From the NCBI GenBank assembly GCA_030680835.1, contig JAUXUD010000001.1:1-64000 (forward strand): a stretch of 64,000 nt of DNA, read 5' to 3'. The notes under the pieces were generated by a model that searched no databases, was not told the origin of the DNA, and saw nothing but the letters and a program-made list of their open reading frames with translations. Positions 38,429 through 42,818 of the stretch are shown here, piece by piece. This DNA is from Bacteroidota bacterium (GTDB lineage: Bacteria; Bacteroidota; Bacteroidia; UKL13-3). The translations under genes and the position numbers were made by a program. The stretch's first letter is position 1. Every line of letters starts with the position of its first letter.

Positions 38429-41077
38429 ATGTTAACTTCATTAACCATTCTCAACTCAAAGGTATACGGCAAAGCAGAAATACGGCTTAACGATTGCGAT
38501 AGCCTGCAATTGGTGGGTCCCAATAATATTGGTAAAAGCACCCTCATTTACGCACTTAATTTTTTGTTTATTGTTGATGGAAACAAAATGACATTCAGTG
38601 GTCAGCGGCGTGGCGATAAAGAAACTTTGCATCATTATTTTCCAAATCCAAACCAAAGTTATATCGTATTCGAAATATTTAAGAAATCGTATTACTGCAT
38701 TCTGGTAAAAAGAAACAGTGACAGCGAATTGGAGTATTTTCGGTTCAACAGCGAATACAAAGAATCGTATTTTGTAGACCAGGATAAAAAATTACTGAAG
38801 TTTGATGAAGTACAGGAAACCATGATTGCCCAGGGTATTGAACTTACTCCGTTTAAAGACAAACGCGAGGTGTTTAATATGGTGTACCAGCGGGGCCGCA
38901 GAAATAATGGAGTGGTATGGTTGGATGACAATGTGAAAACTGATGGATTGAGCAATAATTTTTCGCGCATATACCGCTATCTGATAAATACAAAACTTAT
39001 TACGAATAAAAACCTGAAAGAGGCTTTAATTGTTGCTGATAACAGGGAAAATGAAGTGCTGAACTTTTCTCAGAAAAACAAAAAAGACATTATTGATTTA
39101 CGAAAGATTAACAATGAAATCCGCAATTTAAAATCGGTAAAAAACGAGTTTGATGAATTCAGGGAAGTGGTGAGTCATTATAATGCAAAGGCGAGAATTA
39201 TCAACCAATTGTACTATGGCTTCTGTGCCAATTACGAAAGTACTTTACCCACATTACAAAGCCAACTGGTTGAACGCAACCAGAATATTGCCAAAATAAA
39301 TACAGAAATAAACGAAGGCCTGATTCCGCAAAAGGCCGACTACGACCGAAAAATAGGAGGTAAGGAAACGGAGATTCAAAACAAGGCACTCCTGTTAAAT
39401 GAAAAAGAAATTGAATTAAATGTAATCAATTCTTTTGATCCGGTTGAGCTGCTTAATGAGTCGTTGTTAAATTACGACCAAAAGCGAAAAGAAGTGGAAT
39501 CGCGGATTACGATGGTTGAGATTCAAAAATTAAACAGCAAACAAATTGAACACAAAATTGACGTTTTAAAAGATTCTATTGTTCGTTTTGAGAATCAGGT
39601 GAAGAACTATGGAGACTTGCTGATTAATAAAATTTCGGGGAATAAAGAAAACAGGAAACTTTTAAATGCTATTTTAAGCGAGCAGGTAAAGAGTTTGCCG
39701 GGGGAGCAAGTTTTAAAGGCTATTCATGAGGTTTCGGAACGGTTTAAAATATTTGACGGCGAAATAGATTTGTCGGCAAATATTGTTTTGCAGGATTTTA
39801 AATCGGTAGAAGAAATTAAGGAAGAGCTCCTGGAATACAAAGTAGAATTAAAAAACCAGGAAGCCCTTTTGGAAGTTGTAAAAGACATTGAGAAATCTCA
39901 AAATGAACTTTCTCAAATCAATGCTGAAATAGATTCGGTACGGGCAAAAATTCAACGCATTCACACAAAACCTTTTCTGTTAAAAACCATTGAAAAGTTA
40001 AAGTCGGAACTGAATATACTGAACGAAGAAAAGCAAAAACTGGAAGCCGAACAAAACAAGCTCGCGCAAAGTATTGCAAAATGCCAATTGGAAGTTCAGG
40101 ATATAATAAGCGATAAAGACAAACGTGAAAGCCGTATTAAGGTTTTGCAGGAATACAAGCAAACGCTGGATGCATTTGGGTTGGCAGGCGAAGAATTTGA
40201 AACATCAGATGATCTGGACAATCTTTACAAAAAGGTTCAGATTAACATGAGCGACCGGCACGACCTGAAAGCAAACAAAGATAAGTTGTTCGAAAAATTA
40301 CGGGATAAGTTGCAATCTACATTTGCCGATGAGCAGGATTTTATTAAATATGTTGAAGAGGAAATTGCACTGATAGAGGACAAGGAAAGATCGATATCGA
40401 GCTTGCTGGAAAATATTTCGGCTCAGTTTGCAAATCCTGCTTATACTTTGTTGAAGCGCTACGAAGAATTTAAGGAGTTTGTTTATAATAAATTCAATAC
40501 CAAACTTTCGCAGGCCAGAATATCCGACATCGAATCGTTAACCATTGAGTTGATGGATAATAAAAAACTGGTGGAGGAAGTGAAAAAAATCAGCCAGATT
40601 CAACAGGTACGCGGGCAAATGATGTTTGATTTTGATCATTCGGAGAACCTGAAAGTATTGGACAATTACCTGGATAGCGGTAAGAAAATTGAGTTTGATG
40701 ATTTGTTTGATATTACGCTTCATTTAACGCGTAAGGGAGTAACCAAAAATGTAGATTTGGGCGAACAGATCGAATCGGATGGAACCGATAAAATGATTCG
40801 CCTGATTATTATTATGAACATCATTAACCGGCTTGCCATTAATGATGATGAGAACCGAATTGCCCTGTTTATTGATGAGGTTGCAACCATAGATAAACAA
40901 AACCGGCCCGAGTTGGTGCGGTTTTGCAAGGAGCATCATTTCATACCCATTTTTGCAGCACCCGATGCTGTTGCTGGCTTTGGTAAGTATTATTTTATTT
41001 ACCCAAGTGCCGGTAAAATCAATCTAAATGAAAAGGTGAATGCGATGTATGGGGAACGGAATGCAGTTGCCATTTAA
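38429..41077 (+). CDS. SMC-like ATPase of an MksB/JetC type condensin system
   Basis: 882 residues. An N-terminal ATPase half with Walker A GPNNIGKST (30-38) is followed by RRGDKETLHHYF, resembling the early region of MukB/MksB/JetC heads. Heptad-rich coiled coil spans roughly 210-730. The C-terminal half carries Walker B IALFIDEVATID (D816, E817). Where an SGGE/SGGQ signature is expected there is ESDGTDKMIRL (782-792). No zinc-hook CxxC is visible, which argues against Rad50, and the gene is followed by kleisin-like and kite-like genes. Predicted to entrap or extrude DNA. Whether this is a housekeeping condensin or plasmid/phage defence cannot be decided from sequence. Confidence 0.7.
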   Translation: MLTSLTILNSKVYGKAEIRLNDCDSLQLVGPNNIGKSTLIYALNFLFIVDGNKMTFSGQRRGDKETLHHYFPNPNQSYIVFEIFKKSYYCILVKRNSDSELEYFRFNSEYKESYFVDQDKKLLKFDEVQETMIAQGIELTPFKDKREVFNMVYQRGRRNNGVVWLDDNVKTDGLSNNFSRIYRYLINTKLITNKNLKEALIVADNRENEVLNFSQKNKKDIIDLRKINNEIRNLKSVKNEFDEFREVVSHYNAKARIINQLYYGFCANYESTLPTLQSQLVERNQNIAKINTEINEGLIPQKADYDRKIGGKETEIQNKALLLNEKEIELNVINSFDPVELLNESLLNYDQKRKEVESRITMVEIQKLNSKQIEHKIDVLKDSIVRFENQVKNYGDLLINKISGNKENRKLLNAILSEQVKSLPGEQVLKAIHEVSERFKIFDGEIDLSANIVLQDFKSVEEIKEELLEYKVELKNQEALLEVVKDIEKSQNELSQINAEIDSVRAKIQRIHTKPFLLKTIEKLKSELNILNEEKQKLEAEQNKLAQSIAKCQLEVQDIISDKDKRESRIKVLQEYKQTLDAFGLAGEEFETSDDLDNLYKKVQINMSDRHDLKANKDKLFEKLRDKLQSTFADEQDFIKYVEEEIALIEDKERSISSLLENISAQFANPAYTLLKRYEEFKEFVYNKFNTKLSQARISDIESLTIELMDNKKLVEEVKKISQIQQVRGQMMFDFDHSENLKVLDNYLDSGKKIEFDDLFDITLHLTRKGVTKNVDLGEQIESDGTDKMIRLIIIMNIINRLAINDDENRIALFIDEVATIDKQNRPELVRFCKEHHFIPIFAAPDAVAGFGKYYFIYPSAGKINLNEKVNAMYGERNAVAI

Positions 41078-41101
41078 CCGTAATTTAAACGAAAACATTA
41101 C

Positions 41102-42298
41102 ATGTTAAAAGCTGAACCCAAAACGATACTAAACTTTCTTGCCAATCATTACGATAGCATTAAAGATTTATTTGATATTCAAACGACTGACCATATCATT
41201 TTAAAAGAGCGTTTGGCTCAAACCCTGGAAGAAAGAAATGATGCGATTGCCCCCCAACTCCTCGATTATAAAATTCTCAAAAAACTAGGCGAAGATTTTG
41301 AGTTCAGGGATGCTTACTATAAATTATTTGAATTTATTTTAAATGAGTTCAGACCACTCTTGCCCGAAACCATTCAAAAATATGAGCAATCGATTGGCGC
41401 ATTATTTAAAAAAATCAGGGAAGGAATTTCAGGCGATAAGCATATATTAATTCAGCGGATTAATCATTTATACAACGAGATAAAGGAGTTTAGCGAAGCA
41501 GTTGAAAAAAACACCATTAGATTACTGGCCGAAACCCGGGAGCTGAAATCGAATATTGACAAACTGGACTATAAAGAAAAAGTACGGAAAGCCAGTTTTT
41601 GGATTGACTATTATATTACCCCTTTAAATAATATTTTAGACATCAACCATGCCGATTCGATTACCAATAAATTATTTGATATTTCGAATTATGTAAACAT
41701 CAGGAGGCTTAATTTTAATGATGAACAGATTCGTTTGCAATTTGAAAAAACCTATACTTTTTTGGTTCAAACCAATGATGATTTATTAAAACAATCGAAA
41801 TTACTCACCAATGAATTGTTGCCTTTAATTGAACGGATCAGAACCGAATCAATTATACTTACAGGTTGGATAGAATTTTTGAAAGCCCCGAATAAATCGG
41901 TATTGCCCAAAGTGTATAAAATTGACCGTCAATATCCTTATAGCAATGATATGTATTTAAACGCAAAGGAATATGTAGAGCAATTTGCCATTGATGAAAC
42001 CATTATACTGGAAGACCCATATGCATTAAGTGATAAGTGGGTATTTAACAAAGATTATTACAGGGGAAAGTTAATGAAACAATTGCCTATGGATAGTTTT
42101 TTTGAATGGTGTGGTTTGACACTAAAAACAGATTTTAAAAACATTGAAACTGACAAGTTTTTTGCATTGACCACTTTGTTGTTTGATGAAGGCATCAGTA
42201 TTGAAGTGGATATAAACGACGAGCGGCAATTAATTAATACCAGTCAGATGACTTTACGCGTACCAAAAATTAAAATAGCACGATATGGAATTTCCTAG
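41102..42298 (+). CDS. Putative kleisin subunit (MksF/JetA-like) of the condensin trio
   Basis: 398 residues, almost entirely predicted helix. An N-terminal region that may be winged-helix (IILKERLAQTLEERND) is followed by a long helical centre (about 80-290). The C-terminal part contains SMDSFFEWCG-like helices and a beta-rich end (ISIEVDINDERQ, MTLRVPKIKIARYG). Length and position between an SMC-like gene and an MksE-like gene fit the kleisin MksF/JetA, but direct sequence recognition is weak. It starts 24 bp after the SMC gene and overlaps the next gene by 14 bp, so the three are one operon. Confidence 0.5.
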   Translation: MLKAEPKTILNFLANHYDSIKDLFDIQTTDHIILKERLAQTLEERNDAIAPQLLDYKILKKLGEDFEFRDAYYKLFEFILNEFRPLLPETIQKYEQSIGALFKKIREGISGDKHILIQRINHLYNEIKEFSEAVEKNTIRLLAETRELKSNIDKLDYKEKVRKASFWIDYYITPLNNILDINHADSITNKLFDISNYVNIRRLNFNDEQIRLQFEKTYTFLVQTNDDLLKQSKLLTNELLPLIERIRTESIILTGWIEFLKAPNKSVLPKVYKIDRQYPYSNDMYLNAKEYVEQFAIDETIILEDPYALSDKWVFNKDYYRGKLMKQLPMDSFFEWCGLTLKTDFKNIETDKFFALTTLLFDEGISIEVDINDERQLINTSQMTLRVPKIKIARYGIS

Positions 42299-42818
42299 AT
42301 ATCACAGAGAGATTGTAAATGATTTAATGGCCGGAAAATTTATTCTGGCCAGCGATCCCAAGTTTATTTCGTTAAAAGAAAGTTCCGCTTTTTATGAAAA
42401 GTTTTTTAAAGAAAGTTTTGCTTTTGAGCTGGAAATAAAAAGTGATTTTGGTTTTATATTAAGTTATGAAACTGCCGAACAACTGAGCAGGGATATATGC
42501 ATATTTTTTGCAATTTTATGCTATGAACTCGACCGCGATGGCAAGAATTTTTTAGAAGAAATTCAATATGCCGAGTTTGAACACGAAAAGCTGGATGATT
42601 ATTTTGAAAACAGTGTTTATGCCGAACTTATAGCCAATAATAATCAGCTCAAAAGCAGCGAAACCCGCCGCGATTTTATTAAAACCCTGAGCAGAAGAAA
42701 CATCGTTGAACGCATTGGCGACGGTAAATTTACCTTTACCCAGGCCTACAAAGTTTTTATAGATTTTGCAAGTGATTTTGCAAAAGGGAAACTGGCGGTG
42801 GAGAGTGACTCCAACTAG
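42285..42818 (+). CDS. Putative kite/MksE (JetB)-like subunit of the condensin trio
   Basis: 177 residues. The opening YHREIVNDLMAGKFILASDP, followed by a helix ending SAFYEKFFKESFAFELEI and FGFILSY, resembles the MukE/MksE/JetB start (a GK-DP segment, then a winged helix with an F-x-x-x-G-F turn). A second winged helix may lie at 125-165 (RRDFIKTLSRRNIVERIGDGKFTFT). It overlaps the preceding gene by 14 bp. No JetD-type nuclease gene follows; the next gene is aroC. Confidence 0.55.
   Translation: MEFPRYHREIVNDLMAGKFILASDPKFISLKESSAFYEKFFKESFAFELEIKSDFGFILSYETAEQLSRDICIFFAILCYELDRDGKNFLEEIQYAEFEHEKLDDYFENSVYAELIANNNQLKSSETRRDFIKTLSRRNIVERIGDGKFTFTQAYKVFIDFASDFAKGKLAVESDSN

Follow-up and report, generated by a model that had tools for sequence, protein, structure and literature searches.

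The window, the 64,000-nucleotide stretch of freshwater Bacteroidota DNA analysed here, carries a trio of co-oriented genes (Table 1) encoding an MksBEF complex with permuted gene order. The last 14 bp of mksF also form the start of mksE; a lipoprotein-like ORF lies upstream of the trio and aroC lies downstream. A first-pass annotation, made from the sequence alone, had reported the three ORFs with these lengths, gap and overlap, as well as these neighbours, and the coordinates bear it out in full. The wider surroundings (parA-parB-dapB-lepB and aroC-topA) are kept within the window's genus only, and in other genera the trio has other neighbours.

Table 1. Features of the mksB-mksF-mksE locus, in window coordinates
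Feature	Position	Strand	Basis or remark
mksB-like gene, SMC/MukB-type ATPase	38429..41077	+	882 aa; Walker A and B motifs, layout of the AlphaFold2 model, Foldseek matches to MukB; conserved family
Spacer, 24 bp	41078..41101	no strand	Slot that holds a JetD/MksG-like Toprim nuclease gene in relatives
mksF-like gene, MukF/JetA-type kleisin	41102..42298	+	398 aa; AlphaFold2 model and Foldseek matches; conserved family
mksE-like gene, KITE subunit	42285..42818	+	177 aa; Pfam PF21980; conserved family

The SMC protein has a Walker A motif (GPNNIGKST) at residues 30-38 and a Walker B motif (LFIDE) at residues 813-817, where the first-pass annotation had placed them, along with a signature-like ESDGTDK at residues 782-788; nearly all of these positions are invariant in an alignment of 18 homologues. 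Searched by sequence against solved structures, the SMC, kleisin and KITE proteins returned coiled-coil or chance matches only, with no credible match for the kleisin, so a comparison of folds was needed. The AlphaFold2 model of the SMC protein (mean pLDDT 66, heads poorly modelled) has an SMC layout, with a head at either end and, between the heads, two long helices on either side of a small middle domain, which is a putative dimer hinge. Its top Foldseek matches are MukB structures (9gm9, 9gm6 and 7nyw, E=2e-15 to 4e-14), followed by Rad50, JetC of Wadjet-II and Wadjet-I, and Smc5/6. The kleisin model, which is of moderate confidence (mean pLDDT 71.5), matches MukF best (9gm7_C, E=6.3e-5, prob 1.00), then MukF 7nyw_C, JetA 8q72_E (5.7e-3), MukF 3rpu_B and MukF 1t98_A, such that the first five matches are all MukF/JetA-type kleisins. 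TM-scores are low for both SMC and kleisin, as is expected when models are of moderate quality and coiled coils are long and flexible, and the fold match therefore rests on ranking and E-values. The smallest protein is a member of Pfam family PF21980, MksE (69.8 bits against a cut-off of 27, E=4.5e-19, residues 6-161).

The composition of the trio is thus MukB/MksB plus MukF/MksF plus MksE. No Jet or Wadjet model of PADLOC matches it, and NCBIfam does not recognise it either. The proposal that the locus encodes an atypical MksBEF of Bacteroidota or a nuclease-less relative of Wadjet holds in both halves, and the kleisin and KITE identities on which it depended are those returned by the structure model and by Pfam.

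A scan of genome contigs recovered 32 loci of the SMC family, all of them in Bacteroidota. The SMC gene is present in 52 of the 64 genomes of the window's order, including 38 of the 45 of good quality; in a phylum-wide sample the family was found only in the window's genome and in one other (G186). SMC, kleisin and KITE genes are kept together wherever the contig flank suffices, down to ~37% identity, and no SMC homologue lacking its partners was seen among such loci. A divergent SMC version at ~37% identity occurs in five genomes (g141). A quick tree of the SMC proteins, which came with warnings on long branches, largely groups them by genus. Between close relatives the trio has pN of 0.07-0.15 and pS of 0.7-0.9, pointing to strong purifying selection; because pN is well under pS and the genes stay together to ~37% identity, the trio is not a chance association. 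In one Flavobacteriales MAG (L023, 10637-11907), ~1.25 kb separate the SMC and kleisin genes, with an apparent opposite-strand gene inside.

Profile searches detected no ScpA in any of the 64 genomes of the window's order; the same search found ScpA in 247 of 296 genomes of a phylum-wide sample. The SMC hinge (PF06470) was likewise found in 0 of the 64, using a profile that had no positive control within the phylum and missed Caulobacter, so the evidence for the absence of SMC comes mainly from ScpA and from the list of SMC_N matches in the window's genome. The strongest of these are RecF and RecN; the five best matches that were read are RecF, RecN, PstB, an SbcC-like protein and an OLD-type protein, and the sole long frame among the matches (1245 aa) has an SbcC-type CxxC motif. 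The relative G357, assembled as a single 3.2-Mb contig, shows the same pattern of a trio without SMC-ScpAB. With neither ScpA nor an SMC hinge found in the order, no SMC-kleisin complex other than the trio was detected in it.

Seven good-quality genomes of the order (G307, G325, G334, G335, G337, G338 and G347) have neither the trio's SMC gene nor ScpA nor the SMC hinge, and the trio has therefore either been dispensable over evolution or been missed in these genomes, which are possibly condensin-free lineages. Across the phylum sample, many ScpA-less Bacteroidia are also without the trio's SMC family, so loss of SMC-ScpAB does not require the trio. Many genomes of the same class (family f5 and others) are without ScpA, MksE and this SMC family. 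Some gut Bacteroidota are reported to be without a recognisable condensin, none of the known ones having been found in Bacteroides caecimuris or Muribaculum intestinale (PMC10197239).

Only the short spacer separates the SMC and kleisin genes in the window, in agreement with the earlier observation that the locus shows no visible JetD. The accompanying suggestion that an effector is encoded elsewhere is not borne out, as neither JetD_C nor the SMC family's own nuclease profile has a match in the window's 99.84%-complete genome. Some of the relatives' loci do carry the nuclease, either whole or decayed to a relic. Five relatives have an intact JetD/MksG-like Toprim gene in precisely this position, after the SMC gene and before the kleisin gene; three of them belong to different genera of the order (G299, G345 and G326) and two to other families (G186 and G543). 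In the first four of these (G299, G345, G326, G186) the slot spans ~780-840 bp and holds an intact nuclease gene of 261-279 aa; in G543 the nuclease gene abuts or overlaps its neighbours, in the order SMC-nuclease-kleisin-KITE (A-D-B-C). G299 belongs to the window's genus and has the same flanks, and its 265-aa slot gene matches JetD_C above cut-off and PADLOC JetD1 at 1.4e-6. The Toprim glutamate (E143) and DxD motif (DYD, 186-188) are invariant in the four nucleases that were aligned. Other genomes of the order yielded four strong JetD_C matches, all on contigs other than the trio's; these belong to something else.

In one further relative (G339, locus L007) the slot contains a 54-codon ORF that corresponds to the C-terminal fifth of the nuclease, the catalytic part being gone. 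This relic scores 38.7 bits, whereas none of 2000 shuffles exceeded 9.7, and is 58% identical to the intact nuclease of G345, from a neighbouring genus; nuclease loss is therefore shown in that lineage. That the relic joins both ends of the nuclease was considered and rejected, since the alignment covers the C-terminal fifth only.

The nuclease does not track the condensin core. Pairwise nuclease identity is flat, at 30-38.5%, while core identity spans 30-78%; nuclease GC is below core GC in the three nuclease-bearing members of the order; and two genomes with near-identical cores (G345 and G346) differ in that one has the nuclease and the other does not. The nuclease thus looks like an exchangeable cassette, its sequences pointing either to very fast evolution or to exchange between lineages. 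The flat identity and lower GC suggest that several insertions, and not loss from one ancestor, may lie behind its distribution, and they weaken an account of its mosaic presence as simple repeated loss: loss applies to one lineage, and cassette turnover to the whole. G186, which has the nuclease form, also carries ScpA and has a congener without any copy, fitting the expectation for an accessory defence system.

The first-pass annotation had also remarked that the SMC gene comes first, unlike the usual orders, and B-F-E is the order in every family locus read. Known mks operons run F-E-B(-G) (PMC10123090), and the other JetD/DUF7281-bearing operons we opened run kleisin-KITE-SMC-nuclease; the SMC-nuclease-kleisin-KITE order of the nuclease-bearing relatives (B-G-F-E) is a cyclic permutation of F-E-B-G. 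MksBEF of Pseudomonas aeruginosa likewise consists of SMC, kleisin and MksE without a nuclease, and is a known case of such a complex with a chromosome role; that complex coexists with SMC-ScpAB, whereas no SMC-ScpAB was detected in the window's order. MksBEFG and Wadjet (JetABCD) have the same three subunits, and the window's relatives add a JetD/MksG-like Toprim nuclease to them, but the window has no nuclease, the slot in its relatives separates SMC from kleisin, and the PADLOC Wadjet models do not match. Enterobacterial MukBEF provides the top structural match for both SMC and kleisin, and took over from SMC-ScpAB in its own lineage (PMC10586767); MukB is ~1470 aa long, compared with an SMC of ~60% that length in the window, and the phylum is an independent one. 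Plasmid operons of Polaromonas (pPNAP02) and Salinibacter (pSR76) encode SMCs of similar size to the window's (~880-946 aa), and the former also MksE (PF21980), but they are on plasmids, run F-E-B-G and both include a JetD-like DUF7281 protein.

Several other operons were seen in the course of these comparisons. The plasmid-borne MksBEF-like operons with a DUF7281 nuclease-like gene are at L162 2986-8817 (pSR76) and L163 850-6525 (pPNAP02). MksE matches elsewhere in Bacteroidota, as far as they were opened, belong mostly to canonical-order SMC operons with SMCs of 1056-1137 aa, not to the trio's family. A second Bacteroidota family, kleisin-MksE-SMC (~1230 aa)-DUF7281, occurs at L158 2442-8765, L159, L160 and L161, has weak PADLOC matches, and is possibly an undescribed Wadjet-like type. 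G543 has two different SMC-kleisin-KITE-nuclease operons (L156 6925-16497 and L161 4015-14622); beside each lie an sbcD-sbcC pair, very similar in the two cases, and a regulator-like gene of 299 aa.

We consider it likely that the trio is an MksBEF that acts on the host chromosome as a condensin, in place of the missing SMC-ScpAB; for a near-core, conserved and nuclease-free complex in genomes without SMC-ScpAB, the role of chromosome condensin would be the simplest. By homology to MukBEF and JetABC, the SMC would dimerise, be closed off by the kleisin together with a KITE dimer, and use ATP to entrap DNA and reel it in, making the trio an ATP-driven, DNA-entrapping and probably loop-extruding condensin on the host chromosome. 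In Wadjet, reeling leads up to the cutting of circular DNA by JetD; a machine that lacks this nuclease would keep only its DNA-organising activity, still loading on and reeling DNA but unable to cut it. The trio is related to four-subunit MksBEFG/Wadjet-type operons with a JetD/MksG-like nuclease between mksB and mksF, and the window's copy may have had a nuclease-bearing ancestor.

The trio might instead still serve in plasmid or phage defence, recognising small circular DNA and compacting or trapping it while a nuclease acts in trans, or silencing it without cutting. Operons of close relatives do hold the JetD/MksG-like nuclease, one of them beside recombinase and sbcDC genes, and Wadjet and MksBEF have a common motor (PMC10586767). 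We nevertheless regard this as unlikely, given a genome in which neither JetD_C nor the family nuclease is found anywhere, and a near-core, mostly vertical distribution that is unlike the patchy spread of defence operons. A search of 72,556 plasmids also gave no copy of the kleisin and, for SMC, weak partial matches only.

An improbable further possibility is a dual role, in which a sole condensin keeps or swaps its nuclease cassette and with it polices plasmids, the nuclease-free form being the condensin-only state of a flip-flopping system. The three nuclease-bearing genera of the order, which are still without ScpA and SMC-ScpAB, are as such a role would have them, as are the nuclease's independent divergence, its lower GC and the G345/G346 pair. 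Against this, the nuclease is missing from most copies, the relic represents decay in one lineage, and exchange of the cassette is suggested by sequence comparison rather than observed directly. It is hardly probable that the trio is a minor auxiliary repair or segregation factor in bacteria that manage without a classical condensin, as the seven good genomes without its SMC gene, the ScpA-less relatives in other families and the two species with no known condensin might suggest, since it is strongly conserved and retained as a trio.

The best reading of the comparison as a whole is that a plasmid-defence machine, MksBEF(G), may live on here as a chromosomal condensin, in parallel to enterobacterial MukBEF. 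More tentatively, and with slightly more doubt than conviction, we suggest that SMC-ScpAB would here have given way for a second time, independently, to a MukBEF-like sole condensin, whose nuclease would be a removable cassette that switches the machine between organising chromosomes and killing plasmids. In the open-access literature searched, no paper was found that reports a Bacteroidota lineage with MksBEF as its only condensin. New here are the operon's permuted arrangement, its occurrence throughout the order alongside a lack of SMC-ScpAB, and a nuclease slot that is found filled, reduced to a relic, or empty.

MukBEF and MksBEF have been proposed to be former defence systems (PMC10586767), by a route that has so far been hypothetical. 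The window's order offers living intermediates, in cores with the nuclease, with its relic and without it, in genomes without detectable SMC-ScpAB. For this order only, the trio is a candidate answer to the puzzle of condensin-less Bacteroidota (PMC10197239). A defence machine appears to have been turned into the cell's chromosome organiser, and whether removing one subunit turns a plasmid-cutting SMC into such an organiser can now be tested.
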